Shown here piece by piece: positions 1,024-47,521 of a stretch of DNA of 64,000 bases. The notes beneath the pieces were generated by a model, which searched no databases, was not told where the DNA came from, and saw nothing but the letters and a program-made list of their open reading frames with translations. This stretch comes from Aquisalimonas lutea (GTDB taxonomy: Bacteria > Pseudomonadota > Gammaproteobacteria > Nitrococcales > Aquisalimonadaceae): assembly GCF_030409225.1 (NCBI RefSeq), contig NZ_JAUFPK010000005.1:310831-374830 (forward strand), written 5' to 3'. Made by a program: the position numbers and the translations under genes. Each line of letters opens with the position of its first letter. The stretch's first letter is position 1.

Positions 1024-1243
1024 TGAGCGTGTCCGTCGAGGATCTAGAACCAGATTAACAAATTAGCAAGCCTTGGTGGCGAGCGACTTGATCAGGGTCA
1101 AGGCTGTGGTGCAAAGGCAATGACCGCCCATTCCTCTGGACGCACTGGCCAGGCATTCGGCGGAAAACGAGCGGAGATGCGCGCTGGCGAAGCGCCGGGC
1201 GTAAACACCAATCTAGTGGCATGGGAAACGGGGAGACTGTGCG

Positions 1244-1447: not shown

Positions 1448-1449
1448 GC

Positions 1450-1650: not shown

Positions 1651-1729
1651 TGCTTTCTTCCTACATCGGAAGGGCGGGGGCAGGGTTAGCCGCGTATGAT
1701 GGCAGTGACACCCGGGGCTCGGTTCTGAT

Positions 1730-9843: not shown

Positions 9844-10472
9844 GGGGACATCACCTCCAGATGGTCACGCACGCGCGCCCGGTGGGCCGCGGCCGCGTCG
9901 GCATCGGCCGGCGCGTGGTACAGGCCGGCGGCCTGCAGCCAGTCGGTTGCCGCGTCATGCTGCTCACGCAGGATCTGCGCACCTACGCGCAGGTTGGTGT
10001 AAGGGGCGAGGGCCTCGGCCGGACTGACGAAGCGGTGGCCGTGCCAGTGCCAGTTCACCTGCATCAGGCCGACATCGATGTTGGTCTGCCCGGCGTCGAG
10101 GTGAGCGCGAAGTGCTTCCAGGGCGGCCCTGGCCGTGCGGAATCGCCGGGGCGTGCCGGCGACGTTCAATGTCCACGGCCAGGGCCGATACCGACCCGAA
10201 GCCAGGCGCTGGCCGGACTCCGCCGCCGCGAGGGCATAGAGAATCGACGCGGGCACGTCCTGCTCGGCGGCAATGCGCTGGTAGCCGGCGGGCACCTCCG
10301 CGCCGCCGGGCGAGGCGAGGGCCAGCCCTACAACGAGACCCGCTGCCAGCGCAACCCGTTTCGGCGCAGCAGCGCCGGTGGCTCGAACGCGGCCAGGGTG
10401 CCGTCGTCGCGGTTCAGGGTGAGCCGTTGCGACTGGACGAGCTCGGGCGGGATCTCCAGTGCGGTTGCCCAT
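9840..10472 (-). CDS. Lytic transglycosylase (SLT-like) of the conjugation block
   Basis: The mature part reads AEVPAGYQRIAAEQDVPASI, LYALAAAESGQRL (E is the probable catalytic glutamate), then DVGLMQVNWHWHGHRF, YTNLRVGAQILREQ and AAGLYHAPAD. That is the order of goose-lysozyme-like transglycosylases that open the murein for the mating channel. The only ATG (10472) gives a basic 40-residue extension before the hydrophobic VALAAGLVVGLALASPGGA signal and overlaps the upstream gene by 145 bases. An unusual start nearer the signal peptide, such as CTG near 10360, is possible. It stands between TIGR03759 and TIGR03765, the usual order in this ICE family. Confidence 0.85.
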   Translation of the reverse strand: MGNRTGDPARARPVATAHPEPRRRHPGRVRATGAAAPKRVALAAGLVVGLALASPGGAEVPAGYQRIAAEQDVPASILYALAAAESGQRLASGRYRPWPWTLNVAGTPRRFRTARAALEALRAHLDAGQTNIDVGLMQVNWHWHGHRFVSPAEALAPYTNLRVGAQILREQHDAATDWLQAAGLYHAPADADAAAAHRARVRDHLEVMSP

Positions 10473-18824: not shown

Positions 18825-19622
18825 CTACTGGTAGGTCAGACGGTATGTGGCGCGATACGCCCACAGCAACAGGACGATACCGAGCGCGATCATTGGTATC
18901 GACAAGAGTTGGCCCATGGTGACCCAGCCGAATGCCAGGTAGCCGATATGGGCATCCGGCATGCGCACGAACTCCACCAGAAAGCGGAAGCCGCCGTACA
19001 GCGCGAGGAACAGCCCGGAGACGGCCATGGTCGGGCGTGGTTTGCGCGAGAACAACCACAGGGCAACGAACAGCAACACGCCTTCCAGAAGAAACTGATA
19101 AAGCTGGGAAGGATGGCGTGGGTCGGGGCCCATGGGCGGGTAGACCATGGCCCAGGGGACGTTGCTGACGCGTCCCCAGAGTTCGCCGTTGATGAAATTC
19201 CCGATGCGGCCAGCGCCCAGGCCGACAGGCACGAGAGGCGCCACAAAGTCCATGAGTCGGAGAAAATCCACGCCCGTTCTACGCACGAACAGCCAGGAGC
19301 CGATGATCACGCCGATCAGCCCGCCGTGGAAGCTCATGCCCCCTTCCCAGACCCGAAGCAGTCGTGCCGGATCGCCCGCGAGCGTGGCCGCGTCATAGAA
19401 CAGAATGTAGCCCAGACGACCACCGGCAATAACGCCGATCCCGCAGTAGAACAATAAGTCTTCAATCTGCGCTGGACGAAGCAAAGCGTTCGGTTGGCGT
19501 GCTCGATACCGTCCCAGCAACCAGGCCGCGAAAAAGCCAAGGATATACATCAGCCCATACCAGTGAATGCTCAGCGGTCCGAGTTCCAGAGCAACCGGGT
19601 TGATATCGGGATAGTTGAGCAT
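18825..19622 (-). CDS. lgt: Prolipoprotein diacylglyceryl transferase Lgt
   Basis: The product is a 265-residue inner-membrane enzyme that transfers diacylglycerol from phosphatidylglycerol to the lipobox Cys of prolipoproteins. The conserved blocks are visible: [47 protein letters not shown] (the H of the HGG motif), the Lgt signature [20 protein letters not shown], and [13 protein letters not shown] with its conserved His and Tyr. It looks intact. An lgt away from the usual thyA neighbourhood and on an ICE implies an extra copy. The gene is divergent from a duplicated ccmA promoter carrying a RegA-type box (19738), and lspA and lnt remnants follow the P-type ATPase. Confidence 0.93.
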
Positions 19623-19737
19623 CTACGGAATCCCGGGGGTAAGGGTATCGGTCGACTTGCCGCCAGATGAGCACAGAGAGAACACGGCGGGACATTGTAT
19701 ATGGTCATCGACTGTATCAACTCGGACGTGGACCGGC

Positions 19738-19756
19738 CTGCGGCAAATTGCCGCAG
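19738..19756. promoter_or_regulatory. RegA/PrrA-type box between lgt and the ccmA copy
   Basis: CTGCGGCAAATTGCCGCAG is a perfect palindrome matching GCGNC-N5-GNCGC. It stands 116 bases upstream of the lgt start. On the plus strand it precedes an extended -10 sequence (TGCTATGAT, about 19797-19805). It duplicates the ccmA box at 23397. Confidence 0.65.
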
Positions 19757-19839
19757 GAAGAAGCCATCTAGGGCGGACTGGCTTAAGCTCAACGGGTGCT
19801 ATGATCGGGGCCCCGATCTCCGAACCCATTTCAGGCCCT

Positions 19840-19896
19840 ATGCTGAACGTGAACGATGTTTTTCTGACTCGCGGCGAGTGTCCTTTGCTGTCCAAT
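19840..19896 (+). pseudogene. Truncated 5' end of a ccmA copy
   Basis: From ATG 19840 the first 19 codons (MLNVNDVFLTRGECPLLSN) repeat the start of intact ccmA (23497) with changes L3V and R14C. The copy stops where the 118-bp inverted-repeat element begins. Nothing of the Walker A region is present. Confidence 0.85.
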
Positions 19897-19897
19897 T

Positions 19898-20015
19898 GCG
19901 TATTCCGGTGAACGTGACCGCGGATTCCGGCGCCAGGGCCAAAATCGGTCACGCTCCGGCCGGAATCACCGGTCACGATGCACAGGAATCCGCGGTCACG
20001 TTCACCGGAATACGC
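19898..20015. mobile_element. 118-bp MITE-like element with perfect 31-bp inverted repeats
   Basis: The arm 19898-19928 (beginning GCGTATTCCGGTGAACGTGA) is the exact inverse complement of 19985-20015, and 56 bases lie between. The interior has further CGGTCACG repeats (about 19946, 19970, 19993). Multiple short terminal repeats of this kind are typical of IS21-family ends, so this may be the two ends of an IS21-like element left after loss of istAB, or a non-autonomous derivative. No clear target-site duplication was seen. Confidence 0.7.
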
Positions 20016-20147
20016 AAGTCACGCACACGCCAGGATTATCAGAGCGCGCTGTTCGAGGTTGGGCTCGTCCGCAAAAAGCCATCGGTACACCCGCTGCTTG
20101 CGATCTGGCGGCATTGAACAATCGATGAGCCGTCACGGGCGCAGGAG

Positions 20148-20606
20148 CTATCCCAGCTCGCGAGCGCCTCCATGGGCTTGTTCGCTGATACACAGCTGGT
20201 GATCGCTCAGCACTTCGATGATACGACAGCTCTCAACCTTGCCGCCGGCACACTGGCTCACCATACGCCTGAGCTCGTCACGCAATGCGGAGAGCCGCTG
20301 CAGCCGCGACTCCACCTCTTCCAGGTGATGCGTGGCAATGGCGTCAACCTCCTGACAGGGCATGTCGGGCTGGTCTGACATTGCTAGTAGTTCACGCACT
20401 GCATCCACCGAGAAGCCGAAGTCCCGGGCATGGCGAATGAAGGTCAGCCGCCTGACGACTTCCTCGCCGTAACGGCGCTGCCCACCCTCGGTACGCGACG
20501 CATCGCCCACGAGCCCGATTCGCTCGTAATATCTCACCGTTTCAGGCTTGCAGCCGGCGCGCCGCGCCAGCTCGCCGATACCGATTGTGGGGCTAGACTC
20601 CGACAT
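20148..20606 (-). CDS. MerR-family heavy-metal regulator (ZntR/CadR/PbrR-like)
   Basis: The start MSESSP at 20606 is chosen because it gives the standard MerR length (152 residues). The HTH is IGELARRAGCKPETVRYYER with IGLV, then the dimerisation helix, and the metal loop Cys residues in DMPCQEVDAIATHHLEEVES and SQCAGGKVESCRIIEVL. Three Cys plus a His-bearing C-terminus fit a divalent Zn/Cd/Pb sensor rather than a copper or mercury sensor. It is divergent from the P-type ATPase gene, and the shared gap carries a 19-bp-spacer promoter. It should activate the ATPase gene when metal is bound. Confidence 0.88.
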   Translation of the reverse strand: MSESSPTIGIGELARRAGCKPETVRYYERIGLVGDASRTEGGQRRYGEEVVRRLTFIRHARDFGFSVDAVRELLAMSDQPDMPCQEVDAIATHHLEEVESRLQRLSALRDELRRMVSQCAGGKVESCRIIEVLSDHQLCISEQAHGGARELG

Positions 20607-20628
20607 CCTGATGCGTCTCCCGAATGGC

Positions 20629-20659
20629 TTGAATCTATAGTCGCTACAAGTTTTATGCT
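20629..20659 (+). promoter_or_regulatory. MerR-type promoter of the Zn/Cd/Pb ATPase gene
   Basis: The -35 TTGAAT (20629-20634) and -10 TATGCT (20654-20659) are separated by exactly 19 bases, the lengthened spacer that MerR-family activators require. The spacer holds a dyad-like CTATAGTCGCTACAAG. It lies between the divergent regulator and the ATPase gene, 33 bases before the ATPase start. Confidence 0.85.
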
Positions 20660-20691
20660 GCAAACGATAACGCATCGGCAGGAGTGTCACC

Positions 20692-22887
20692 ATGGAAAAT
20701 TCGGCACCCACGGCAGCATCCGCGGTCTTGACGCTGCGGATCGAAGGTATGGACTGTGGCGGCTGCGAGCGCAAGGTAGAGGACGCTCTGGGCCGCCTGG
20801 AGGGCATCGAGGAGGTATCGGCCAGCTCGGTCACTGGTTCTGTGAGGATTCAGCCCCAGCCGCACACTTCCCCCTCTCACGAGACGATCGAGCGGACCCT
20901 TAACGAGCTCGGCTATCAGCTTGCGGCCAATGATGAGAAGGATGAGGCAGATGCCTCTCCGGCGCCCTGGTGGCGGACCGCCAAGGGACGTCTGGTGCTC
21001 GTCACGGGGGGGCTGCTGGCTCTGGCCTTCGTCCTCCGCTGGGCCTTGCCGTCCTTGGGCAACTGGCCCTTCGTCGCGGCCACCGTGGTGGGTCTGGTGC
21101 CCATCGCACAGGGCGTCTTGGCCGCGTTGAAGATGCGCAACCCCTTCACCATCGAGATGCTGATGAGCATCGCCGCCCTGGGCGCGTTGACCATCAATGC
21201 TGCTGCCGAGGCGGCGGTGGTGGTCTTCCTGTTCGCCGTCGGTGAACTGCTGGAGGGCGTGGCCGCCTCACGGGCGCGACGCAGCATCTCGGCCCTGGCG
21301 GATCTGACCCCGTCAACGGCCAGGCTGATGGAAGAGGGAGCCATTCGTGAGGTCTCGGCCTCCTCTCTCACGCCCGGACAGCGGGTAATGGTTCGGCCGG
21401 GCGACCGCGTCCCCTGCGACGGTCGCATCCTGGCCGGAGCATCCGACCTGGATGAGTCACCGGTGAACGGTGAATCCGTGCCCTGCTCGCGTGCACCGGG
21501 CGATGACGTCTTTGCCGGCACGGTGAACCTCAATGCCGCCCTGGAGGTGGAGGTGACACGCGGCGCCGAGGACAACACCATCGCACGGGTCATCCGCCTG
21601 GTGGAGGAGGCCCAGGCCGGCAAGGCACCCGTGGCACGCTTCATCGACCGCTTCGCTCGCTACTACACGCCTGCGGTAGTGGGACTCGCCCTGCTGATGG
21701 CAGTGGTGCCACCGCTGGTCTCGACCATGGCCTGGTCGGAATCGGTCTATCGTGCCCTGGCTCTGCTGTTGATCGCGTGCCCTTGCGCGCTGGTGATCTC
21801 AACCCCTGCGGCAATCGCCGCTGGTCTATCGGCGGGCGCTCGGCGGGGCCTGCTGATCAAGGGCGGTGCGGTGCTTGAACAACTGGGCAAGCTGCGCCTG
21901 ATCGCCGTGGACAAGACTGGCACGCTCACGGAAGGTGCCCCGACAGTCACCGATGTGGAAGACTGGGCCCCCGGTCAGGGTGGAAACGAGGTCCTGAGGC
22001 TGGCGGCGGCGCTGGAGCGTGACTCCAGCCACCCCATCGCTACGTCTATCTTCTCGCGTGCAGAGCAGCTTGGACTTTCTATCCCCCAGGCGAACGGCAA
22101 CCATGCTCTTTCGGGTCGTGGCGTCGCCGGCCAGGTCGAGGGACGTGAGCTGCGATTGGTCGCCCCCCGACATCTCGCGGGGCTGGCAGACATTGATCAA
22201 GGCCTGAGCACCCGGATTGCTGAACTGGAGGACGCTGGCAAGAGCCTCGCAGTACTGCTCGAAGGCGAGCGTCCGCTGGGCCTGATCGCCGTGCGCGATG
22301 AACCTCGCGTCGATGCCCAGGAGGGCCTGGCGACGCTGTCGCGTCTGGGCGTGCAGGCGGTCATGCTCAGCGGTGACAATGCACGCACGGCGGCGGCCAT
22401 CGGTGACAGCCTGGGTATTGAGGCTCATGGCGAGCTGATGCCCGAAGACAAGGCCCAGCGCGTTCGCGACTGGCAGGCCGCCGGCCGGGGCCCAATCGGC
22501 AAGGTGGGCGACGGCATCAACGATGCGCCGGCACTGGCCGCGGCAGAAGTGGGCATCGCCATGGGCGGCGGCACAGATGTAGCACTGGAAACGGCGGATG
22601 CGGCGCTGCTCAAGAACCGCGTCACCGGTATCGCCGAGCTGATTGACCTGTCCCGCGCCACCTTGCACAACGTCAAGACCAATGTCGCGCTGGCCCTGGG
22701 TTTCAAGGCCATCTTCCTGGTGACCACGGCGCTGGGCATTACCGGTATGTGGATCGCCGTCATGGCGGATACCGGCGCTACCGTGCTAGTGACTCTGAAC
22801 GCCATGCGGCTGCTGGGCTATCGCTTCTCGCTCGGAGCCGCCTCAAGCGGCTCGGCGAGTCCGTACTATAGGGAAGCCACGTCGTGA
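20692..22887 (+). CDS. zntA: Zn/Cd/Pb-translocating P1B-type ATPase
   Basis: The product is 731 residues. The N-terminal HMA metal-binding domain has GMDCGGC (Cys22, Cys25). Transmembrane helices surround the ion-path motif IACPCALVIS (CPC at about 363-365). The phosphorylation motif is AVDKTGTLTEG (Asp about 407), with the ATP-binding region HPIATSIF and GVAGQVEG, and the hinge GDGINDAPALAAAEVG. These features fit the ZntA/CadA group. The A-domain motif reads ESPVNGES in place of the usual TGES core, a variation known in P1B pumps. It is driven by the 19-bp-spacer promoter at 20629 under the divergent MerR regulator. lspA and lnt remnants follow. Confidence 0.93.
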   Translation: MENSAPTAASAVLTLRIEGMDCGGCERKVEDALGRLEGIEEVSASSVTGSVRIQPQPHTSPSHETIERTLNELGYQLAANDEKDEADASPAPWWRTAKGRLVLVTGGLLALAFVLRWALPSLGNWPFVAATVVGLVPIAQGVLAALKMRNPFTIEMLMSIAALGALTINAAAEAAVVVFLFAVGELLEGVAASRARRSISALADLTPSTARLMEEGAIREVSASSLTPGQRVMVRPGDRVPCDGRILAGASDLDESPVNGESVPCSRAPGDDVFAGTVNLNAALEVEVTRGAEDNTIARVIRLVEEAQAGKAPVARFIDRFARYYTPAVVGLALLMAVVPPLVSTMAWSESVYRALALLLIACPCALVISTPAAIAAGLSAGARRGLLIKGGAVLEQLGKLRLIAVDKTGTLTEGAPTVTDVEDWAPGQGGNEVLRLAAALERDSSHPIATSIFSRAEQLGLSIPQANGNHALSGRGVAGQVEGRELRLVAPRHLAGLADIDQGLSTRIAELEDAGKSLAVLLEGERPLGLIAVRDEPRVDAQEGLATLSRLGVQAVMLSGDNARTAAAIGDSLGIEAHGELMPEDKAQRVRDWQAAGRGPIGKVGDGINDAPALAAAEVGIAMGGGTDVALETADAALLKNRVTGIAELIDLSRATLHNVKTNVALALGFKAIFLVTTALGITGMWIAVMADTGATVLVTLNAMRLLGYRFSLGAASSGSASPYYREATS

Positions 22888-22927
22888 GAACGAAGCGGAT
22901 ACCGATAGCGCCGCGCCGCGCGGGGGG

Positions 22928-23075
22928 TACAGCTTGATGTTGGGTGCCGCCCTGGGTAATCGTATCGATCGGCTGGCACGAGGGTATGTGGTGGACTACT
23001 TGGACTTACTACTGGCGTGAGTGGCATTGGGCCGCCTTCGACTTGGCGGATATCACTCTGTTCCTGTGCAGATGG
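22928..23075 (+). pseudogene. lspA: lspA (signal peptidase II) C-terminal remnant
   Basis: MLGAALGNRIDRLARGYVVD followed by YLDL is the LspA catalytic block (GNxxDR and the second Asp in VVDYLD). A one-base insertion near 23012 shifts the frame. The other frame continues YYWREWHWAAFDLADITLFL, the second conserved LspA motif (xWHWxxFNxAD). No N-terminal half is present. It merges without a gap into an lnt remnant. Confidence 0.75.
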
Positions 23076-23368
23076 CAAGGCTGCGCGCTTTGGAGAACGG
23101 TCGTACCCTGATCTGCGCCACCAGCAACGGGGTGACGGGGATTATCGATCACCAGGGGCGGATTACCACACAGGCGCCCCAGTTCGAGCAAACCAGCCTT
23201 GTCGGTGAAGCGCTGCCCATGGTGGGTTATACACCGTTCACCCGTGTCGGTAGGTGGCCCACTTGGCTGTTGGCGGCGCTACTGTCGCTGCTTGGATGGA
23301 AACCCAACATAAATCGGTCGGCTGACAACGCACCAGGCGAAAAGGAAGAGAACACAGCGGGACCTTGA
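23069..23368 (+). pseudogene. lnt: lnt (apolipoprotein N-acyltransferase) C-terminal remnant
   Basis: The frame reads QMARLRALENGRTLICATSN, then GVTGIIDHQGRITTQAPQFE, VGEALPMVGYTPFTRVGRWP and a terminal hydrophobic helix (LLAALLSLLGW). That is the C-terminal end of the Lnt nitrilase domain and its last membrane helix. The catalytic Glu-Lys-Cys region and the seven N-terminal helices are missing. With lgt (18.8 kb) and the lspA remnant, all three lipoprotein-maturation genes are represented around the P-type ATPase. Confidence 0.8.
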
Positions 23369-23556
23369 ATCTGGTCCCCGCGTGTATCAACCCGGACTGC
23401 GGCAAATTGCCGCAGGAAGAAGCCGCGTAGGGCGGACTGACTCAAGTCAAGGGGTGCTATGATCGGGCCCCGATCTCCGAACGCATTTCAGGCACTATGC
23501 TGAACCTGAACGATGTTTTTCTGACTCGCGGCGAGCGTCCTTTGCTGTCCAATCTC
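23345..23556 (+). repeat. Direct-repeat copy B: functional ccmA promoter and 5' end
   Basis: This is the parental-looking copy of the repeat at 19677-19896, because it runs on into intact ccmA. It holds the RegA-type box (23397-23415), an extended -10 (TGCTATGAT, about 23455-23463) and the ccmA start. Divergence from copy A is roughly one base in eight by eye, so the duplication is not recent. Confidence 0.8.
23397..23415. promoter_or_regulatory. RegA/PrrA-type box of the ccmA promoter
   Basis: CTGCGGCAAATTGCCGCAG is a perfect palindrome 82 bases upstream of the ccmA ATG and about 40 bases before the extended -10 TGCTATGAT. The position suits activation by a bound response regulator. The same sequence is found near lgt, and shorter or one-base variants before regB and the SCO operon. 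Confidence 0.7.
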
Positions 23557-24111
23557 TCACTCGCATTGTCTGCCGGAGAGGCCCTTCACGTCCGGGGAGC
23601 TAACGGCAGTGGCAAGACGACGCTGCTGCGGGCGATCGCCGGGCTCACACCCCTTGAGCACGGGCGTATCGACTGGCGCGGCCGTGACATCCGGCGTAGC
23701 AGCGACATCTACCGTAGCGAAATGCTGTTCGTGGGCCATCAAAGCGGACTGAAGATGCGGATGACGCCCAAGGAAAATCTGGAGCATTATCGACGGATAC
23801 GTCCTGGGCGAGATATCTCGACCACGGAGGCGCTCGCAGCCATGGGGATCGGCGGGGCGGCGCAGCTACCGTGTGGTGTGCTTTCCGCCGGACAGTGCCG
23901 GCGGACCACGCTTGCGCGCCTGCTCTGCGAGCAGGCTGAACTCTGGATACTTGATGAACCCTTTACCGCTCTGGACACCGAAGGGGCAGGATGCCTCTCG
24001 CGGTTGATCGAGGCTCATGTTCGTACTGGCGGGATCGCAATACTAACCTCCCACCAGCTTGTACCGATGGATATATCGGCCTTTCGAACGCTCGATCTGC
24101 CCCATGCCTGA
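23497..24111 (+). CDS. ccmA: Haem exporter ATPase CcmA
   Basis: This 204-residue ABC ATPase of system I cytochrome c maturation uses ATP hydrolysis to release haem-charged CcmE from CcmC. Walker A is VRGANGSGKTTLLRAIAGLT, the signature is LSAGQ (within GVLSAGQCRRTTLARLLCEQ), Walker B is LWILDEPFTALD, and the switch His is in LTSHQ. It is complete. It overlaps ccmB by eight bases. Transcription should start from the RegA-boxed promoter at 23397-23463. Unusually, ccmAB face the rest of the ccm genes head-on. Confidence 0.95.
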   Translation: MLNLNDVFLTRGERPLLSNLSLALSAGEALHVRGANGSGKTTLLRAIAGLTPLEHGRIDWRGRDIRRSSDIYRSEMLFVGHQSGLKMRMTPKENLEHYRRIRPGRDISTTEALAAMGIGGAAQLPCGVLSAGQCRRTTLARLLCEQAELWILDEPFTALDTEGAGCLSRLIEAHVRTGGIAILTSHQLVPMDISAFRTLDLPHA

Positions 24112-24787
24112 TCACTCGCCCGGCTCAGCGTTTGCGGCCGTTCTGGTCCGTGATCTTCGTCTGCACGCCCGCTCACCGGGGGATGCTGCCAACCCCGTGC
24201 TGTTTCTCGTGATGGTCACAGCGCTGTTTCCCTTGGCTATCGGAGCATCTACCGAGGTTCTCGCTCGTATTGCGCCCGGTATCATCTGGGTGGCGGCATT
24301 GCTGTCGTCCATTCTGTCCATGGACACCGTGTTTCGGGCCGATTTCGAAGATGGGACGCTGGAGCAGCTTGCGTTAGCACCCTCCCCGCTGGCGTTGCTG
24401 ATACTTGCGAAGCTTGCCGCGCACTGGCTGGTCACGGCGTTGCCGCTGATCCTGGTGTCGCCGCTCCTCGCGCTCTGGATGCACTTTCCAGCCACCGCCA
24501 TACCGGCGTTGATGGCGACCCTTGCATTGGGTACCCCGGTGCTCTCCGGTGTTGGCGCTATTGCAGCGGCGCTGACGCTGGGAGTGGGGCGCGGAGGTGC
24601 CCTGCTCGCGCTGCTCGCATTGCCGCTTTACGTGCCCGTGCTCATCTTTGGCGCAGGAGCGGCCGACGCCGCCGCGAGTGGCCTGTCCGTATCCGGACCT
24701 CTCCAGCTATTGGGTGCAATGACGTTGTTCACGATCACATTGGCGCCGATCGCCGTTGCCGCCGGCTTACGGATCAGCCTTGACTGA
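24104..24787 (+). CDS. ccmB: Haem exporter membrane subunit CcmB
   Basis: ATG 24104 (MPDHSPGSAFAAVLVRDLRL) overlaps the ccmA stop and gives the standard CcmB length of about 227 residues. Six hydrophobic helices are visible, with the conserved LFPLAIGASTEVLARIAPGI, WVAALLSSILSMDTVFRADF, DGTLEQLALAPSPLALLILA and LPLYVPVLIFGAGAAD blocks. It pairs with CcmA and CcmC. Its 3' end is only 24 bases from the stop of ccmI on the other strand. Confidence 0.95.
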   Translation: MPDHSPGSAFAAVLVRDLRLHARSPGDAANPVLFLVMVTALFPLAIGASTEVLARIAPGIIWVAALLSSILSMDTVFRADFEDGTLEQLALAPSPLALLILAKLAAHWLVTALPLILVSPLLALWMHFPATAIPALMATLALGTPVLSGVGAIAAALTLGVGRGGALLALLALPLYVPVLIFGAGAADAAASGLSVSGPLQLLGAMTLFTITLAPIAVAAGLRISLD

Positions 24788-24811
24788 GGTGACTGCCCGC
24801 CGGGCGTCATG

Positions 24812-25663
24812 TCAACTGTCGGGAATTTCATCCAGAGCTTCGTCAATGCGTGCAGCAGTGGCATCGCTGTCGGGGAGTTGAGCGCGAAGCCGCTCCCAGA
24901 GAGCACGAGTTCGTTCCCAGTCACCGGCCTGCGCCGCCGCCAGCCCGCCGAAGAACAATGCATCCGGATGCGCCGGAGCGCGTACTAGCGCACGTTCAAC
25001 CAACCGGGTTGGCTTTCCGCTGAAACGACCTTGTTGCTCCGCCGCCAGCGCTCTCGCCCAGATCAGCAATAGATCGGGTATGTCTCCATTCGCCTCGACG
25101 GCGCGGCCCATGGCTTGCGCCGCTTCGTCCGGGCGCTCCAAGGCCAGGTAGGCACGCCCCAGCATTCCCCACGCTTGGATGTCGCCCGGACGTGTGGCGA
25201 CGTGATTCTCGAGTTCCGGCAGCCGCTCGGCCATTTCCGTGGGGTTGAACTCCTCGTTCGATGGCTGCTGGACAGAGGGCGTTCCAACCAGAAAGTCGGG
25301 GCGACCAATGCTGAGGTACAGACCCGCCGCGAGCGCCACAACCATCATCCCGCAAAACGCTGCCCTCCAACGGCCGGCCCCGGGGTTACCGCCCGCAGGG
25401 TTGTCCGCGGCATGTGCCTCATCAGTGCTACCGAGCAACTCGCGTTCGGCCTCGATACGCGCTTCACGGTACTCTTCATCACCGATCAGGCCGGCCTGCC
25501 ATTCACTTTCCATTTCGCGCAGTCGGGCGCGTCGTGCTATCAGGTCCGCTGCGGCCGTGCTTGGACGTTGCAGTCGGCGCTGCCTCCACAGGGGGACCAC
25601 GACAAAGGCGGCGGCCATCGCCGCGGCGCCGACAAGTGCGATCATCGCTATCAGCGTTTTCAT
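24812..25663 (-). CDS. ccmI: Cytochrome c maturation protein CcmI (TPR domain)
   Basis: The product is 283 residues with an N-terminal membrane helix (IAMIALVGAAAMAAAFVVVP), the linker RLREMESEWQAGLIGDEEYR with the CcmI N-terminal signature, a second helix (CGMMVVALAAGLYLSI), and then TPR-like repeats (WGMLGRAYLALERPDEAAQA and HPDALFFGGLAAAQAGDWER). CcmI chaperones apocytochrome c to the CcmF/H ligase. It starts four bases inside ccmH (ATGA) and is the last gene of the leftward ccmCDEFGHI operon. Confidence 0.93.
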   Translation of the reverse strand: MKTLIAMIALVGAAAMAAAFVVVPLWRQRRLQRPSTAAADLIARRARLREMESEWQAGLIGDEEYREARIEAERELLGSTDEAHAADNPAGGNPGAGRWRAAFCGMMVVALAAGLYLSIGRPDFLVGTPSVQQPSNEEFNPTEMAERLPELENHVATRPGDIQAWGMLGRAYLALERPDEAAQAMGRAVEANGDIPDLLLIWARALAAEQQGRFSGKPTRLVERALVRAPAHPDALFFGGLAAAQAGDWERTRALWERLRAQLPDSDATAARIDEALDEIPDS

Positions 25664-26130
25664 ATTTGATCGTTCTCGTCGTCGAGCAGGCGTCGCAGGC
25701 GGTCGTGTTCCTCAGGGCTGAGCACCTGCGGATGGCGGTCTGATCGGCGTCTTGCGATGACAAGCGCGACACCGACCGCCGTGATGCCAAGCAGTGCGGG
25801 AGCAAACCAGAGCACCCAGGTCGCCGGCTTCAATGGTGGGCGAAACAACACGAAGTCCCCGTAGCGTTCGGTCATGTAGCGCCGGATCGCCTCATCCGAG
25901 CGGCCCTCGCGCATGAGCTCGCGCACCTTGGCGCGCATGTCTTTCGCAAGGTCAGCGTTGGAGTCGAGGATGCTCTCGCCTTGGCAGACCAGGCAGCGGA
26001 GTTCCTGGGCAATGTGACGAAAGCGCGCCTCACGCTCGGGATCCGCGAAAGGATCGTCCCCCTTCCCGAAGGCGGTCGCCGCAACGGCGAGTATCAGAAG
26101 CGCGGTCATCAGCCAGCGGAGCGAAATCAT
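25660..26130 (-). CDS. ccmH: Apocytochrome c thiol reductase CcmH (CcmL type)
   Basis: ATG 26130 overlaps the ccmG stop, which settles the start; the frame runs further to 26274. The product of about 156 residues has a signal peptide and the invariant ELRCLVCQGESILDSNADLA (LRCxxCQ), the helix bundle DMRAKVRELMREGRSDEAIR, RYGDFVLFRPPLKPATW, and one C-terminal membrane helix. CcmH reduces the CxxCH cysteines and presents apocytochrome to CcmF. The CcmI part is a separate gene here. Confidence 0.95.
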   Translation of the reverse strand: MISLRWLMTALLILAVAATAFGKGDDPFADPEREARFRHIAQELRCLVCQGESILDSNADLAKDMRAKVRELMREGRSDEAIRRYMTERYGDFVLFRPPLKPATWVLWFAPALLGITAVGVALVIARRRSDRHPQVLSPEEHDRLRRLLDDENDQI

Positions 26131-26657
26131 GACTCGGCCTCCGCCTGCAGTTGGCGCACCAACGGCAGGATCTCCTCGCGCAGGGTGCGCTCGGTGATGG
26201 CACCGATGTGCTTCTTCCGGACCACGCCCTCGGCGTCCAGGATGTATGTCTCCGGCACGCCGTAGACGCCCCATTCCAGGCCTACTTTGCCGTCCGGGTC
26301 GTAGAGGCTGGCGGTGTAGTTGTCGCCCTGGCGGTCCAGCCAGGCGATGGCCTTGTCCCGCTCGTCCTTGTAGTTCAGGCCGTACACCGGTACTTCGTCG
26401 GCGAGGGCCATGACATATGGGTGCTCGTCCTCACAGGCGGCGCACCAGCTTGCCCAGACATTGATCACGGAAACCTCGCCGCGCAAGTCGCTCAGGGAGA
26501 CGCTCCGCTGCGGATTACGCAGGCTCTCGACGGTAAAATCCGGGGCCACACGGCCCACGAGGGGAGAGGGGATCTCGCCGGGGCGCAGCGTGAGTCCCAC
26601 CCCGAGCAGGACAGCGAGGGCCACGAACACCACCAGGGGCATCAGGAGGCGCTTCAT
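26127..26657 (-). CDS. ccmG: Thiol-disulfide reductase CcmG/DsbE
   Basis: The product is a 176-residue membrane-anchored thioredoxin-like protein. The N-terminal anchor is MPLVVFVALAVLLGVGLTLR. The active site reads SVINVWASWCAACEDEHPYV; CAAC is less common than the CPTC or CPSC of model CcmG proteins. The conserved GLNYKDERDKAIAWL and the cis-Pro loop GVYGVPETYILDAEG are present. It reduces CcmH or apocytochrome c with electrons from CcdA (30041). It overlaps ccmF and ccmH by four bases each. Confidence 0.95.
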   Translation of the reverse strand: MKRLLMPLVVFVALAVLLGVGLTLRPGEIPSPLVGRVAPDFTVESLRNPQRSVSLSDLRGEVSVINVWASWCAACEDEHPYVMALADEVPVYGLNYKDERDKAIAWLDRQGDNYTASLYDPDGKVGLEWGVYGVPETYILDAEGVVRKKHIGAITERTLREEILPLVRQLQAEAES

Positions 26658-28615
26658 GCCGGTGCCTCCGCCCCCAGTCGGGCGCGCTCGGTGAGCCGGC
26701 GATAGCGCGGATCTGTGATCGCCAGTCCGCCGCCGAGAGCCATGAACAGGGTACCGAGCCAGATCCAGCGCACCAGCGGCTTGAGCTGGATGCGCACTGT
26801 CCAGCTCCCGTCGGCGCGTCGCTCGCCAAGCGCTACGTAGAAGTCCCGGAAAAGGCCGGCATTGATGCCGGCCTCGGTCATCGGGTTGCTCTGCATCCGG
26901 TAGACGCGCTCCTCCGGGTAGAGCGTGGCCACCGTGCGCCCGTCTCGGTTTACCGTGATCTCACCACGTTCGGCGCTGTAGTTCGGTCCCTCCGTCGAGC
27001 GCACCGATTGCAGTGTCCAGGTATAGCCCGCCGCCTCGATGGACTCTCCCGGAGCCAGCCGCACGTCGCGCTCAAGGTCCAGTGTGCTTACCACGGTGAC
27101 ACCGGCGGCGAACACCGCGAGGCCGAAGTGGGCGAGCGCCATGCCCCAGACGCTCCGGGGCGTGGTGCGCAGAGCCTGCCAGCGCCGACGCCGCCCGCGT
27201 ACCCGATCAGCCACGGCCTGGACACTCGTCCACGCGATCCAGACCGACAGTGCGAGCCCCAGCGCGGCTAGCGGCGGTACCTCTCCGAGCCACCACAGGC
27301 TCGCCAACCCGGCGCAGAGCGTGGCGGTCGCCGCCGGCAAAAGGGTGCGTGCAAGCGGGCCGGCAGCGTGGCGCTTCCAGCGAACGAGACTACCGATGCC
27401 CATCATGGCCAGCAGCGGCAGCATCAGCGGAACGAATACGGCCTCGAAGTAGGGCGGCCCCACGGAGACCTTGCCGAGCCCGAAGGCATCCAGCGCAAGC
27501 GGGTAGAGCGTGCCGATGAGCACGGTCGCTGCGGCCACGCAGAGCAGCGCGTTGTTCAGTAGCAGCGCCATCTCGCGGGAGACGAGACCGAAGCTTCCAC
27601 CTGCGGCGAGGCGCGGTGCACGCCAGGCATAAAGTACCAGGGAGCCACCGACCACGAGTATCAGCAGGCCGAGAATGAAGGCACCGCGGGCAGGATCGGT
27701 GGCGAAGGAGTGCACCGAGGTCAGCACCCCGGAGCGTACGAGGAAGGTGCCAAGCAGGCTGAGGGAGAAGGTGACGATGGCAAGCAGCACCGTCCAGCCG
27801 CGGAAGGCGCCACGTTTCTCAGTTACCGAGAGCGAGTGTATCAGGGCGGTTCCCGTGAGCCACGGCATGAACGAGGCATTCTCCACCGGGTCCCAGAACC
27901 ACCAGCCGCCCCAGCCGAGTTCGTAGTAGGCCCACCAGCTGCCGATGGAAATGCCGAGCGTGAGAAACACCCAAGCGGCCGTGGTCCATGGCCGCGACCA
28001 GCGTGCCCAGGCAGCATCGAGCCGACCACCAAGCAGCGCGGCAATGGCGAAGGCGAAAGCCACCGAGAATCCCACGTAGCCCATGTAGAGCATCGGTGGA
28101 TGGGCGATCATCCCCGGATCCTGCAGCAGCGGATTGAGATCCCGCCCCTCTGCCGGCACCGGTGTCAGCCGCTCGAAGGGGTTCGATGTCAGCAAGGTGA
28201 AGGCCAGGAAGCCCACGCTCACCAGCCCCATGACACCCAGCACTCGGGCGACAAATATCTCCGGCAGTTGGCGGCTCCAGGCCGCAACCGCCACACTCCA
28301 ACTGCCAAGCACGACAGCCCAGAGCAGCAGACTGCCCTCGTGGGCGCCCCACACGGCGGTGAGCCGGTAGTACCACGGCAAGGCCGTGTTCGAGTTCTCG
28401 GCGACGTAGGCGAGCGAGAAGTCGTTCTGCAGGAATGCAGTCGCCAGCGCCGCCAGCGACAGGGCCAGCATCAGTAGCTGACCGACTGCCGCGGGCCGGG
28501 CCACCGCCATCCATTGACGCTGTCCGCGGTGCGCCCCGGCGAGGGGCAGCGCCGCTTGCATCAGCGCCAGTACCAATGCCAGCACGAGGGCGAAAAGCCC
28601 GAGCTCACCGATCAT
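26654..28615 (-). CDS. ccmF: Haem lyase subunit CcmF
   Basis: This 653-residue polytopic protein is the cytochrome c synthetase of system I. The tryptophan-rich WWD motif GWGGWWFWDPVENASFMPWL and haem-ligand histidines (WGAHEGSLLLW, IAHPPMLYMGYVG, and a later THE-like region) are visible among about 14 helices. A large periplasmic loop precedes the last helix (RMQSNPMTEAGINAGLFRDF), as is normal for CcmF. Length and motifs are complete. It is linked by four-base overlaps to ccmE and ccmG. Confidence 0.96.
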   Translation of the reverse strand: MIGELGLFALVLALVLALMQAALPLAGAHRGQRQWMAVARPAAVGQLLMLALSLAALATAFLQNDFSLAYVAENSNTALPWYYRLTAVWGAHEGSLLLWAVVLGSWSVAVAAWSRQLPEIFVARVLGVMGLVSVGFLAFTLLTSNPFERLTPVPAEGRDLNPLLQDPGMIAHPPMLYMGYVGFSVAFAFAIAALLGGRLDAAWARWSRPWTTAAWVFLTLGISIGSWWAYYELGWGGWWFWDPVENASFMPWLTGTALIHSLSVTEKRGAFRGWTVLLAIVTFSLSLLGTFLVRSGVLTSVHSFATDPARGAFILGLLILVVGGSLVLYAWRAPRLAAGGSFGLVSREMALLLNNALLCVAAATVLIGTLYPLALDAFGLGKVSVGPPYFEAVFVPLMLPLLAMMGIGSLVRWKRHAAGPLARTLLPAATATLCAGLASLWWLGEVPPLAALGLALSVWIAWTSVQAVADRVRGRRRRWQALRTTPRSVWGMALAHFGLAVFAAGVTVVSTLDLERDVRLAPGESIEAAGYTWTLQSVRSTEGPNYSAERGEITVNRDGRTVATLYPEERVYRMQSNPMTEAGINAGLFRDFYVALGERRADGSWTVRIQLKPLVRWIWLGTLFMALGGGLAITDPRYRRLTERARLGAEAPA

Positions 28616-29052
28616 CGGCGATCCTCCCCCGGCTTTGTGGTCCGTAGGCTGTCTGCTACCTCAGGCGGCATGTAGTTCTCGTCGTGCTTGGCGAGCACTT
28701 CCTCGGCGACGAACACGTCGTCCTCCCGCAGCGTGCCGCGCACCACCACACCCTGTCCCTCCCGGAAGAGGTCTGGCAGCACACCCTCGTAGGTGACGGG
28801 CACCTCCGAGGTACCGTCGGTCACCGAGAAGCGAACCATCAATCCCTCATCAACCTCCTCCAGACTTCCATCCCGGACCAGTCCGCCGAGGCGGAACGGG
28901 TAATTCGTGGGCGCCTCGCCGGCGACGACCTGTGATGGATCAAAGAAGAACAGCATGTTCTCGCGGAAGGCGGACAGCGCAAGCGCAGTCGCCACCATGA
29001 CGCCTCCCACGATGAGCAGAACGAACGTTGCCCGGCGTTGCCGCACCGTCAT
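28612..29052 (-). CDS. ccmE: Periplasmic haem chaperone CcmE
   Basis: The product is 146 residues. The N-terminal anchor is FVLLIVGGVMVATALALSAF, followed by the OB-fold blocks FRLGGLVRDGSLEEV, VTYEGVLPDLFREGQGVVVR and FVAEEVLAKHDENYMPPEV. The haem-binding His123 lies in the HxxxY motif (HDENY). CcmE binds haem covalently, receives it from CcmC, and hands it to CcmF. It is tightly overlapped by ccmD and ccmF. Confidence 0.96.
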   Translation of the reverse strand: MTVRQRRATFVLLIVGGVMVATALALSAFRENMLFFFDPSQVVAGEAPTNYPFRLGGLVRDGSLEEVDEGLMVRFSVTDGTSEVPVTYEGVLPDLFREGQGVVVRGTLREDDVFVAEEVLAKHDENYMPPEVADSLRTTKPGEDRR

Positions 29053-29198
29053 GACTGCTGCCCTCGATCCAGATCACGAATGAGCTGACGATGTCGGCGC
29101 ACGGGCAGAAGAATCTGCACCCCAAGGACCGCGAATACGATTGCATAGGCGGGCCATACGTACGCTGCATAACCACCCATGGCGAGAAATTCCATCAT
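29049..29198 (-). CDS. ccmD: Small haem exporter protein CcmD
   Basis: ATG 29198 (MMEFLAMGGYAAYVWPAYAI) overlaps the ccmC stop and gives the typical CcmD size (49 residues). The FLAMGGYAAYVWPAY start, one membrane helix and the basic cytoplasmic tail (RRHRQLIRDLDRG) are the CcmD pattern. CcmD holds CcmE in the CcmABC complex. It sits between ccmC and ccmE as usual. Confidence 0.94.
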   Translation of the reverse strand: MMEFLAMGGYAAYVWPAYAIVFAVLGVQILLPVRRHRQLIRDLDRGQQS

Positions 29199-29938
29199 GG
29201 TGACGCCTCCCTGACCGCACGCTTCGCCCACTCCGTGTGGCGCTCACGTGACAGCAGTTCGTAACGGGTCCGCAGCAGCAGGACGGCACAAAAGTACGTT
29301 GTGAACGCGAAAGCCATCAGCAGCAGCGGCACAAGCATCGAGAGGTGGATGGCCGGCGCATCCAGGCGCGTGATCGTCGGCCCCTGATGTAGCGTGCTCC
29401 ACCACTCCACCGAGTAATGAATGACGGGAATGTTGACCACGCCGACCAGTGCGAGAACGCCAGACGCCCTGGCGGCACGTCGTGGATCGTCGATGGCGCT
29501 GTTGAGCGCCATGTAACCCATATAGAGGAAGAGCAGCAGTAGCTCGGACGTCAGCCGGGCATCCCATACCCACCATGTTCCCCACATAGGCTTGCCCCAG
29601 AGCGAACCGGTTGCGAGAGTGAGGAAGGTGAAGCTTGCCCCCAACGGCGCCGCAGACCGAGCCAGGCACTCGGCTACCTTGATTCGCCAGATCAGCCCGA
29701 TCGCCGCCGTGGTCGCCATGAAGACGTATGCGAAAAGTGACATCCAAGCCGCAGGCACGTGGACGTAAATAATCCGATAGCTTTCACCCTGCTGATAGTC
29801 CGGCGGCGCAAGCACCAGGGCGCCAAACAACCCCACGATCATGGCAGCACCAGAGACCGCCCCGAGCCACCGGGCCCAGGGTTTGCAACGGGTGTAGAAA
29901 TACGGCGGCGAGCTCAGGCGATAAAACCAGACTGGCAT
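29195..29938 (-). CDS. ccmC: Haem handling protein CcmC
   Basis: The 247-residue protein has six helices and the WWD haem motif GTWWVWDARLTSELLLLFLY, with ligand histidines in IIYVHVPAAWMSLFAYV and NIPVIHYSVEWWSTLHQGPT. CcmC transfers haem to CcmE His123. It is the first gene of the leftward ccmCDEFGHI run. The 102-base gap to ccdA (30041) could hold a promoter or be read through. I saw no RegA-type box in front of it. Confidence 0.96.
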   Translation of the reverse strand: MPVWFYRLSSPPYFYTRCKPWARWLGAVSGAAMIVGLFGALVLAPPDYQQGESYRIIYVHVPAAWMSLFAYVFMATTAAIGLIWRIKVAECLARSAAPLGASFTFLTLATGSLWGKPMWGTWWVWDARLTSELLLLFLYMGYMALNSAIDDPRRAARASGVLALVGVVNIPVIHYSVEWWSTLHQGPTITRLDAPAIHLSMLVPLLLMAFAFTTYFCAVLLLRTRYELLSRERHTEWAKRAVREASP

Positions 29939-31000: not shown

Positions 31001-31252
31001 TCAGGAGGCGTCTTCCGGTTCGGACTCCGGGCTCATCATGCCTTCGGCGTCTCCGTGTGCGCCCATCTGATCCATCATGGACTCGCACTGGGTCATCATG
31101 CTCTGCATTTGCGACATCATGCCCATCATGCTGTCGTCGCCCATCATTCCTTTACCGTTGCTGCCGCCATTGGCGATAGCAACACCGCCGACAGCCAGGG
31201 AGCTGGCAAGGGCCGCACCGGCGAGAAAACTGCCCATCGAGAATTTGTTCAT
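31001..31252 (-). CDS. Small Met-rich exported protein
   Basis: ATG 31252 (MNKFSMGSFLAGAALASSLA) gives a signal peptide followed by a mature part with many Met residues (KGMMGDDSMMGMMSQMQSMM) and one Cys, then an acidic tail. The longer frame from 31327 would put a charged stretch before the signal peptide and is less likely. Met clusters suggest periplasmic Cu(I) binding. It is divergent from regB, and the gap carries a RegA-type box 102 bases upstream of this start, so the gene may be under RegA control. No family name recognised. Confidence 0.65.
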   Translation of the reverse strand: MNKFSMGSFLAGAALASSLAVGGVAIANGGSNGKGMMGDDSMMGMMSQMQSMMTQCESMMDQMGAHGDAEGMMSPESEPEDAS

Positions 31253-31353
31253 CTTTATGCCTCCAACTAGGCTTGACCTTCGGTTGCGTCTCCCCAGAGA
31301 AGAGTTCTGACGGAAGACAACCGCCATTATCGGGAGCTATGACCGGGACGTCC

Positions 31354-31370
31354 TGCGGCAAATTGCCGCA
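31354..31370. promoter_or_regulatory. RegA/PrrA-type box between the Met-rich gene and regB
   Basis: TGCGGCAAATTGCCGCA is a perfect 17-base palindrome that fits GCGNC-N5-GNCGC. It is 66 bases upstream of the regB start and 102 bases from the divergent Met-rich gene, so it could serve autoregulation and the small gene. It shares CGTCCTGCGGCAAATTG with the SCO operon box. Confidence 0.7.
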
Positions 31371-31435: not shown

Positions 31436-32734
31436 ATGACAGACATCATCGAGACGACCCATCTGCGCCGGTTGATCCGCCTTCGATATTTGGTGATAGC
31501 GGGGCAGCTGGTAACGGTTCTGGGCGTACATGTAGGCCTTGAGCTCGCTCTCCCGATAACGCCGATGCTTGCGCTTATCGCCGCGTTGGCCGCGTTCAAT
31601 ATTGCAACTCAATGGCGTCTGGGCTCGGGCCGTCCGGTCACGCAACGGGAGTTCGCCGCACAGCTGATCATCGACATTGCGCAACTCAGCCTGCTGCTTT
31701 ACCTGAGTGGCGGCTATGCGAACCCCTTCATCTTCATGCTCCTGCCGCCGCTTGCCATTGCCGCCGCCGCTTTGTCGGGCTGGCATACGGGCTGGGTGGT
31801 AGCCGGCGCGGCCGTGTGCTACTCCGTGCTGCTGATGTTCCACGTCCCCCTTCCGGCACTGGAGGCGCTGCCAGTCGCCTCCCCGGTAGTCCTCCGGCAG
31901 ACGGGAATGTGGGTCTGCTTCATGGTCGCCGCCAGCGTTATCGTCTTTTTTGTATTGCGAACCCGTCAGACCCTGCGTGAAAAGGATCAGGCACTGGCCG
32001 AGGCGCGCGACCGGGCCCTGCGTAACGAGCATCTAGCGGTGGTGGGTAGCCTTGCTGCAGGTACCGCACATGAGCTTGGAACGCCTCTGGCAACCATGTC
32101 TTTTCTTACTGAAGAGATGCATGCCGACGTCGATACACCCCACCTGCGTGATCAGCTGAGCACCCTGCGTCGCCAGGTGTTGCGCTGTCGCGATGCTATT
32201 GATCAGCTCGCCGCATCCGCGGGGGAACTGCGAGCGAGTGCGGGATACTCCGGTGATCTGGAAGACTGGATTGTCCGGCTCGTGGGGCGCTGGCGTCGGG
32301 AAAGTCCGCAGACGCACATCGCACTGCATATTGATGATCATGCGCCGGCTGTAAGGCTGTTGCTGGATCGCGCGCTTGAACAGGCAGTATCGTCGTTGAT
32401 CTCCAACGCCGTGCGTGTCAGCACTGAAGTGGAGATTGTCGCCCGTTGGGACCACTCGGAGCTTGTGCTCGACGTGCTGGATCGCGGACCCGGGGTGCCC
32501 AGTGAACTCGCCTCGATTATTGGCCGCCAACCACTAGGCCAGCGGGAAGGGGTTCATGGCATGGGGCTCGGACTGTACCTGGCGACCGGCACGATCGAGC
32601 GGCTGGGCGGACGGCTGGAGTTGTCACCACGAGAGGGTGGTGGCACCCGAGCTCACCTCCTGTTCCCCATGAGCCGACTGAAATTTGATGATGGAATCGC
32701 AGAACAACAGGGTATATCGGCTTCTGCTGGTTGA
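31436..32734 (+). CDS. regB: RegB/PrrB/ActS-type redox sensor histidine kinase
   Basis: The product is 432 residues. Six hydrophobic segments occupy about 20-180. The strictly conserved quinone-sensing motif of the RegB family, GGxxNPF, is present (LSGGYANPFIFMLLPP, about residues 91-98). The H-box is AAGTAHELGTPLATMSF (His about 212), distinctive for RegB. The redox-active Cys equivalent stands in RRQVLRCRDAIDQL. The ATP-binding N and G boxes follow (SLISNAVRVS, DVLDRGPGVPSE, GMGLGLYLATGTIERLGG). RegB lowers its kinase activity when the quinone pool is oxidised. Its partner overlaps its 3' end. Confidence 0.92.
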   Translation: MTDIIETTHLRRLIRLRYLVIAGQLVTVLGVHVGLELALPITPMLALIAALAAFNIATQWRLGSGRPVTQREFAAQLIIDIAQLSLLLYLSGGYANPFIFMLLPPLAIAAAALSGWHTGWVVAGAAVCYSVLLMFHVPLPALEALPVASPVVLRQTGMWVCFMVAASVIVFFVLRTRQTLREKDQALAEARDRALRNEHLAVVGSLAAGTAHELGTPLATMSFLTEEMHADVDTPHLRDQLSTLRRQVLRCRDAIDQLAASAGELRASAGYSGDLEDWIVRLVGRWRRESPQTHIALHIDDHAPAVRLLLDRALEQAVSSLISNAVRVSTEVEIVARWDHSELVLDVLDRGPGVPSELASIIGRQPLGQREGVHGMGLGLYLATGTIERLGGRLELSPREGGGTRAHLLFPMSRLKFDDGIAEQQGISASAG

Positions 32735-33239
32735 AGATGACGAGGCCTTCTGTGCGGTGGCGGCAAGCGCCTTGCGCCGGCGCGGTTTTGATGTGCGGGT
32801 TGCGGCATCCGGCGATGTGGCACGCAGGATGGCGTCTGACTTCATACCGGAATATGCCGTACTCGATCTGCGTTTGGGGGAAGACTCCGGGCTCAGCCTG
32901 TTGCCAACGATTCTGGAGCATGCCCCTGACTGCCATGTCGTGGTGCTCACTGGCTACGCCAGTATCGCTACAGCCGTGGAAGCCATCAAGTTGGGGGCGG
33001 TCAACTACCTGACGAAGCCCGCCTCGATTGATGAACTCCTTGACGCGCTGTATCACCATGATCCCGATCCTGATCGCGAGGCTGCCAGCGAACCCATATC
33101 GGTCCGACGCGCAACCTGGGAGCACGTGCAGCGTGTCCTTCGGGAGGCCGGCGGGAATGTGTCGGAGGCTGCTCGACGGCTTGGCATGCACCGCCGAACC
33201 GTGCAGCGGATACTGAACAAGCGTCCACCCGCGCATTAG
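32688..33239 (+). CDS. regA: RegA/PrrA/ActR-type response regulator
   Basis: ATG 32688 or 32691 opens inside the last codons of regB. The receiver domain has LLLVEDDEAFCAV, the phospho-acceptor in YAVLDLRLGEDSGLSL (Asp about 60), VVVLTGYASIATAVEAIKLG and NYLTKPAS. A short Pro/Asp linker (HHDPDPDREA) replaces the four-proline hinge of model RegA. The Fis-type HTH is GGNVSEAARRLGMHRRTVQR with ILNKRPP, almost the RegA consensus. RegA binds GCGNC-N5-GNCGC sites and controls respiration, haem and cytochrome genes in purple bacteria. Four such sites are in this window. Confidence 0.92.
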   Translation: MMESQNNRVYRLLLVEDDEAFCAVAASALRRRGFDVRVAASGDVARRMASDFIPEYAVLDLRLGEDSGLSLLPTILEHAPDCHVVVLTGYASIATAVEAIKLGAVNYLTKPASIDELLDALYHHDPDPDREAASEPISVRRATWEHVQRVLREAGGNVSEAARRLGMHRRTVQRILNKRPPAH

Positions 33240-47510: not shown

Positions 47511-47521
47511 GTTACCAGAGT

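Follow-up and report, generated by a model that had tools for sequence, protein, structure and literature searches.

We identified a duplicated promoter region in a 64,000-nucleotide stretch of the Aquisalimonas lutea genome (contig NZ_JAUFPK010000005.1, positions 310,831 to 374,830; the whole stretch is called the window below, and positions are counted from its first letter), within what looks like an integrative and conjugative element (ICE). The control region of ccmA, here called P, occurs twice as direct repeats that enclose a heavy-metal and lipoprotein-gene cassette, and the left copy lies next to the leftward gene lgt. The left copy has -10 hexamers on both sides of a palindromic box and the right copy on its ccmA side only, foreign DNA adjoins the left copy on its right and the right copy on its left, and remnants of lspA and lnt lie within the cassette. 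We give about an even chance to the reading that an ancestral two-way promoter, lgt<-P->ccmA, was split by the metal cassette, with each gene keeping a copy of P.

18825..19622, minus strand: lgt, prolipoprotein diacylglyceryl transferase, intact, 265 aa (Pfam LGT 6.9e-82; NCBIfam TIGR00544 above cut-off)
19677..19896, plus strand: copy 1 of the repeat, comprising P and ccmA codons 1-19
19840..19911, plus strand: truncated ccmA, 19 codons, then 4 codons out of a miniature element and a stop
23347..23553, plus strand: copy 2 of the repeat, comprising P and codons 1-19 of the intact ccmA
23497..24111, plus strand: ccmA, intact, 204 aa (NCBIfam NF010061 and TIGR01189 above cut-offs)

When the window was compared with itself by BLAST (E <= 1e-3), 19677-19896 (220 bp) matched 23347-23553 (207 bp) with E 5.8e-67 and 85.5% identity over 220 columns; of the three self-matches it was the strongest, the remaining two being 56 bp (inverted) and 32 bp long. 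This bears out the duplication reported in a preliminary description made from the sequence, which had placed copy 1 at the limits found here, and copy 2 at 23345-23556 instead of its actual 23347-23553. Each copy spans from about 150-163 bp 5' of the ccmA start through ccmA codon 19, and both hold, as that description had said, a RegA-like box, an extended -10 and 19 codons of ccmA (19840-19896 in copy 1 and 23497-23553 in copy 2, with two amino-acid differences); the box is a palindrome of 17 bp. Aligned, as the preliminary description had proposed, the copies differ, gaps left aside, by 19 substitutions in 207 columns (9.2%), with three indels of 11, 1 and 1 bp; dating the event from this divergence was rejected, since a rate is lacking and the copies are possibly alleles. 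An assembly artefact was rejected, the copies being 9% apart and both within one 525-kb contig. A third copy was not found in the host genome (4.2 Mb, 16 contigs) with 19640-20030 as query, the four matches being the two copies, the inverted repeat of the miniature element described below, read on the other strand, and a 41-bp match to that element on another contig.

The promoter motifs of the two copies are arranged around the box as follows.

19739..19755, no strand: RegA-like box of copy 1, 17-bp palindrome TGCGGCAAATTGCCGCA
23398..23414, no strand: RegA-like box of copy 2, TGCGGCAAATTGCCGCA
19694..19720, minus strand: lgt-facing promoter-like pair of copy 1, TTGATA (19715-19720), 15-nt spacer, TACAAT (19694-19699)
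19800..19805, plus strand: extended -10 (TGcTATGAT) of copy 1, toward the truncated ccmA
23458..23463, plus strand: extended -10 (TGcTATGAT) of ccmA, copy 2

On the ccmA side, TATGAT lies 55.5 bp (copy 1) and 54.5 bp (copy 2) off the box centre, and on the lgt side of copy 1, TACAAT lies 50.5 bp off it. TTGATA is also present on the lgt side of copy 2, where no hexamer with at least four matches to TATAAT was found within 70 bp. Hexamers with at least five of six -10 matches thus occur on both sides of the box in copy 1 and on the ccmA side only in copy 2; they are found in 3.25% of 4000 random 70-mers drawn from 18-32 kb. The lgt-facing pair matches the consensus at 10 of 12 positions in copy 1 (p 0.0025, 2000 shuffles with spacers of 15-19) and at 8 of 12 in copy 2, and seven of the 19 substitutions fall in 19 columns around the lgt-facing -10 (p 0.02; 0.05-0.27 for four other windows). 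Because of this -10 asymmetry and the pattern of substitutions, we read P as a two-way promoter whose copies would now serve one gene each, an arrangement that is at most suggestive and was noticed after the fact.

Two further structures were seen in the repeat. A further palindrome, GATCGGGGCCCCGATC, which is 15 bp long in copy 2, lies at 19803-19818 and 23461-23475, overlapping the -10 end in both copies; its pattern was found nowhere else within the window, and it is a possible candidate operator. A terminator-like hairpin at 23359-23378 on the minus strand (0.4 expected in shuffles) lies in the former lgt-facing promoter of copy 2, and is reported for copy 2 and not for copy 1.

The box itself recurs once more in the window, upstream of genes for a putative redox regulatory pair.

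31354..31370, no strand: third box, TGCGGCAAATTGCCGCA, 65 bp before the regB-like gene
31436..32734, plus strand: regB-like redox sensor kinase (ActS/PrrB/RegB type; best NCBIfam hit 262.6 bits, cut-off 350)
32688..33239, plus strand: regA-like response regulator (ActR/PrrA/RegA type; best NCBIfam hit 185 bits, cut-off 250)

The 4.2-Mb genome has three occurrences of the 15-bp core of the box, all of them in a single 12-kb section of the island; in four other genomes of the genus the core occurs once, at an unrelated site between genes that we read from sequence as hrcA-like and grpE-like. Together with its flank (at most two mismatches), the box was found among 398 genomes in the host and in one other, there apparently not beside a ccm gene. 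The first half-site fits the RegA/PrrA consensus in the form in which PMC5435760 quotes it after Mao et al. 2005; the second half, GCCGC, agrees at four of five quoted positions, and the box is a perfect palindrome, unlike that consensus. Ten bases are also common, on the other strand, to the RoxR consensus GCGGCAATTTAGAGC, as given in PMC9104464. Calling the motif a RegA box is a reasonable guess that falls short of proof. The island's RegA-like regulator would bind the box, whose position before the regB-like gene suggests that the regulator may control its own gene. The third box also lies 26 bp from the start of a leftward open reading frame (ORF) at 31001-31327.

Between the repeats we identified, as the preliminary description had stated, an intact merR gene and metal ATPase gene with remnants of lspA and lnt.

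20148..20606, minus strand: merR-family regulator (ZntR/CadR/CueR-like), full-length (Pfam; NCBIfam equivalogs all below cut-offs, including CadR-PbrR)
20692..22887, plus strand: heavy-metal P1B ATPase, full-length, 731 aa, best match Zn/Cd/Hg/Pb type
about 22927-23062, plus strand: lspA remnant (about residues 101-146 of Halomonas LspA), frameshifted
about 23066-23346, plus strand: lnt remnant, last part of Lnt to the C-terminus (NCBIfam lnt 8.2e-7, below cut-off)

For the ATPase, TIGR01525 and TIGR01512 (cadmium subfamily) score above their cut-offs and TIGR01511 (copper) just above, and NCBIfam PRK11033 gives 776 bits, under its cut-off of 1005. Two Halomonas plasmids, pHAL1 and KO116 unnamed1, carry merR-ATPase-lspA-lnt in the same order and on the same strands as in the window, at about 73% DNA identity over merR and the ATPase gene (73.6% with pHAL1). 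In both plasmids lspA and lnt are intact, in contrast to the remnants in the window, and neither lgt, ccmA nor P lies within 12 kb, lgt being situated in another module; a third Halomonas plasmid has matches to the merR-ATPase DNA and to lspA and lnt, with fragmentary annotation. Relative to pHAL1, the interval between the ATPase gene and lspA has shrunk from about 345 bp to 95 (about 250 bp lost) and that from lspA to lnt from 1316 bp to 6 (about 1.3 kb lost). Such deletions would be in keeping with an in-place tandem duplication of a larger ccm segment, of whose first copy later deletions would have left P and 19 codons. That account leaves the arrival of the cassette unexplained, and no other duplicated ccm sequence appears in the self-comparison of the window, and we think it decidedly improbable.

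The limits of the repeat coincide with changes in the origin of the DNA.

19897..20016, no strand: IS21-type miniature element, resembling a miniature inverted-repeat transposable element, 120 bp, 38-nt inverted arms (95%), without transposase
20017..20147, no strand: intervening stretch, 131 bp, from the miniature element to merR

Copy 1 ends exactly at 19896, and the miniature element then begins with TGCGTATTCCGG. A target duplication of 4-8 bp was not found around this element (each limit shifted by one base), and could have been lost if the element recombined later. No continued similarity to ccmA was found in the miniature element (p 0.67), nor does ccmA resume to its right, where local alignment of the 131 bp with ccmA past codon 19 gave p 0.75. 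This stretch has a single weak 31-bp match in plasmids and no Pfam match in two frames. Since the target duplication is absent and the 131 bp are unlike ccmA, the flanks of the miniature element were joined by recombination or deletion. On the other side of the cassette, the lnt tail runs up to the left limit of copy 2 (about 23346) and enters copy 2 without a stop of its own. At each of these limits the repeat thus meets foreign DNA on one side, and therefore no second junction is required beside lgt; what lies to the left of copy 1 may be lgt's native leader.

To assign the miniature element, we took 25 plasmid records with DNA similar to it and inspected five. Three of these have IS21 genes, annotated istB or istA/istB, with the repeat at their bounds, and in the first of the three the repeat also overlaps an annotated tyrosine recombinase gene; similar ends flank an istA and istB element on Marinobacter pMAQU01 and an annotated istB element on a Polaromonas plasmid. 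One of the five has the repeat near tyrosine recombinase genes only, and in Cupriavidus pMTS2 it makes up a double-ended unit of 138 bp, and the annotation shows no IS21 gene within 4 kb of this unit. The terminal inverted repeats in the window resemble those of IS21 elements, and because similar ends bound istA/istB elements, the window's element is best read as an IS21-type miniature element. It differs from IS21-family miniature elements in the absence of a target duplication. A second, imperfect element of this type lies on contig C14 (188229-188321, ends GTATTCCGG...CCGGAATACG); it was the only further related copy seen in the genome, in a search that took exact ends 60-90 bp apart only and did not catch the window's own element. 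The preliminary description had mentioned neither the miniature element nor the 131-bp stretch, the lnt-tail junction, the third box and the lgt-facing promoter pair.

On the reading that we prefer, P would have been the intergenic control region of a divergent pair, with lgt to the left and ccmA to the right, and would have held one palindromic RegA-like box centrally and a -10 about 50-55 bp off the box centre on either side. A merR-ATPase-lspA-lnt cassette, of the kind that stands alone on the Halomonas plasmids, would have been joined between the two genes by a rearrangement whose path ran through the IS21-type miniature element on its left side and through the end of lnt on its right side, and which provided each gene with a copy of P. 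Copy 1 would now serve lgt, its ccmA half being the 19-codon stub, and copy 2 would serve ccmA, its lgt-facing half having lost its -10. The cassette would afterwards have lost most of lspA and lnt and retained merR and the ATPase gene. On this account, lgt would have kept its box rather than gained it.

The two copies of P may have arisen by duplication in place or may derive from two related ICEs. In the latter case, one parent would have carried lgt-P-ccmA with a miniature element in ccmA, and the other a miniature element followed by merR-ATPase-lspA-lnt-P-ccmA, with recombination between the miniature elements, so that the copies would never have been identical in this lineage. This overlaps with the preferred explanation, of which it is a variant in route. 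The 9.2% substitutions and three indels between the copies agree with it, as does the lack of a target duplication, because of which the flanks of the miniature element would come from two places; a second miniature element of the type is at hand on contig C14. The end of contig C15 (L091 13586-16872) is 94.5% identical to window positions 1-3286 over 3288 columns, and may belong to another, related ICE of this genome; if this putative membership is correct, related ICEs meet in the host, and joining of two alleles is a serious rival to in-place duplication. Neither parent was found, and no second ccmA (E 1e-28; eight of 123 first-look candidates scored) or ccmF (E 1e-230; three of eight) was found in the genome. 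We consider this route rather unlikely. With respect to the preliminary description, the two junctions support entry of the cassette by recombination: a miniature element that lacks a target duplication lies on the right of copy 1, and lnt is joined to P on the left of copy 2. The description's other proposal, a simple tandem duplication in place, gains no clear support from copies that differ by 9.2% and three indels and whose similarity does not clearly extend past their limits.

We investigated the distribution of related ccm loci, in particular for an empty site with lgt directly beside ccmA, as the preliminary description had envisaged. The window carries ccmB directly after ccmA.

24128..24787, plus strand: ccmB (Pfam CcmB 6.8e-73)

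The convergent order of ccmAB and ccmC-I (23497-29938) is common to two genomes of the same order, which also hold the nearest CcmF (68% and 67%). Among the 31 ccm loci searched (29 with about 1.5 kb each side of ccmA, two with about 20 kb), no empty site was found, and tblastn, for which the queries were Lgt, the Lnt and LspA of Halomonas and the ATPase of the window, gave one match, an ATPase (41%) near ccmC in one of the two nearest same-order genomes. CcmA itself has no close relative in our searches, in which the genome samples of class, phylum and order overlap. At E 1e-28, 240 of 369 genomes of the class match, the best other at 49%; at E 1e-50, the host genome alone matches among 398 genomes of the phylum; every plasmid match is below 60%; a contig scan gave eight loci at 25-34% identity; and no close relative was found in viral contigs. 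With the P-ccmA DNA as query, 34 of 54 genomes of the order gave some match, the listed foreign ones at query position 255 or beyond, mostly in the ABC (ATP-binding cassette)-motif part and none in P. The same query gave three phage matches of 38-45 bp, all in the ABC-motif part, and none in viral contigs or in E. coli genomes; the lack of a match at 1e-12 in 274 class genomes is uninformative, as the host genome was not in that set. P alone had no match in plasmids. The regions upstream of other lgt copies, in the host genome and its relatives, gave no match above 23 bp to the lgt-P region. Another lgt left of the window (contig C12, 304606-305387) is apparently split into two overlapping frames, and adjoins ORFs read as DUF411, cation-efflux and copper-ATPase genes. 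Since neither an empty site nor a close ccmA relative was found, we can only infer the order of events and their polarity.

Several observations weigh against an ancestral lgt<-P->ccmA arrangement. The lgt-facing pair of copy 1, with its 15-nt spacer, was not found by a standard scan with spacers of 16-18; substitutions cluster only weakly on the lgt side (p 0.02-0.27 across windows that were chosen post hoc); and comparison of the upstream and downstream halves of the repeat gave p 0.03, 0.05 or 0.13 depending on the cut. The third box has only a 4/6 hexamer (TATTAG, at 53.5 bp) toward regB, and a 5/6 hexamer (GATAAT, at 33.5 bp) on its far side, and the RegB-like and RegA-like proteins both score under NCBIfam cut-offs, though ActS/PrrB/RegB and ActR/PrrA/RegA are their best hits. 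Among relatives, the two nearest ccm clusters have other neighbours upstream of ccmA, with no lgt, lnt or box there; lgt was beside ccmA in none of the 31 loci; and a loose box-like match within 400 bp of ccmA occurs in only two of 29 CcmA loci. Finally, the DNA left of copy 1, compared with the lnt tail, gave unanchored p values of 0.21, 0.08 and 0.11 for three stretches and anchored values of 0.033 and 0.028, a weak similarity that, if real, would argue that copy 1 formerly had lnt to its left.

These observations touch on the proposal of the preliminary description that lgt, upstream of which the box does lie, had gained it. P would in that case have been ccmA's alone, a partial P-ccmA copy would have been put beside lgt when the cassette arrived, and the lgt-facing motifs would have come later. 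The zero count among the 31 ccm loci fits such a course, as do the weak likeness of the lgt-side flank to the lnt tail and the position of lgt in another module, with no ccmA nearby, on the three Halomonas plasmids examined. It would need an extra junction, of lgt with P, almost at the base where lnt meets copy 2, unless the flank similarity is real, and the lgt-facing, -35-like TTGATA is present in both copies and therefore predates their split. We hold a gain by lgt to be possible but unlikely; the reverse polarity fits at least as well, only copy 1 having a -35 and -10 that face lgt. Taken as a whole, the preliminary description is confirmed in its observation, and its interpretation is half right, being partly supported.

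Overall, the region is a mosaic that arose when recombination passed through a miniature element, and in it a promoter, possibly two-way, is duplicated. We tentatively suggest, as a somewhat doubtful extension, that the insertion copied a two-way promoter, so that both divergent genes stayed under one redox regulator and the copies then specialised, copy 1 for lgt and copy 2 for ccmA; the box would define an ICE-private regulon of regBA, ccmA and lgt, coupling lipoprotein lipidation to cytochrome c maturation. If true, this would show how cargo can be placed between divergent ICE genes with neither cut off from its control region, and would offer a testable box whose core was not found elsewhere in the genome. 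Otherwise, the region represents the ordinary mosaic evolution of a metal-resistance ICE, and the rearrangement is neat but fairly ordinary for a mobile element.

The host element is indicated by transfer and maintenance proteins, TIGR03754 conj_TOL_TraD at 7217-9307 and TIGR03761 ICE_PFL4669 and NF040582 STY4528 at 50.5-53.4 kb, all above cut-offs. We take the TraD_TOL, PFL_4669 and STY4528 proteins to be marks of the PAGI-2/ICEclc-like ICE family, and because they are in the window, the ccm, metal and regBA genes look like part of such an element. A tRNA was not found within the window. The two minor self-matches of the window are an inverted repeat of 56 bp (93%; 47199-47254 and 47460-47515) near an IS66 transposase gene (48269-50062), and a direct repeat of 32 bp (91%; 7907-7938 and 9885-9916) with one copy within traD and the other beyond it.

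One search of an open-access library found no paper that joins at least four of these subjects, ccmA, lgt, a direct repeat, an ICE and heavy metal resistance, which is no proof that the arrangement is unpublished. The cassette resembles the cadR-cadA-lspA unit of the Tn6018 type in Acinetobacter, in whose description a regulator, a metal ATPase and lspA are linked, with tnpA downstream of lspA (PMC6863613); the same linkage is described for Module_J of TnAbaR (PMC8225882). In the window, compared with Tn6018 by description only, lspA is a remnant, the regulator scores below the CadR-PbrR cut-off, and an lnt remnant and ccmA stand where Tn6018 has its own transposase 3' of lspA. For the element as a whole, the closest parallels are PAGI-2 of Pseudomonas aeruginosa, described as carrying cytochrome c biogenesis and heavy-metal cargo (PMC7685784), and CMGI-1 of Cupriavidus metallidurans, described as near-identical to PAGI-2 and with cdfX-pbrR2-cadA-pbrC2 (PMC2864759). 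The consulted passages on these islands, which were compared as descriptions, make no mention of a duplicated ccmA promoter. What PAGI-2 and CMGI-1 have in common with the element in the window is a conjugative ICE that combines cytochrome c biogenesis with heavy-metal cargo.

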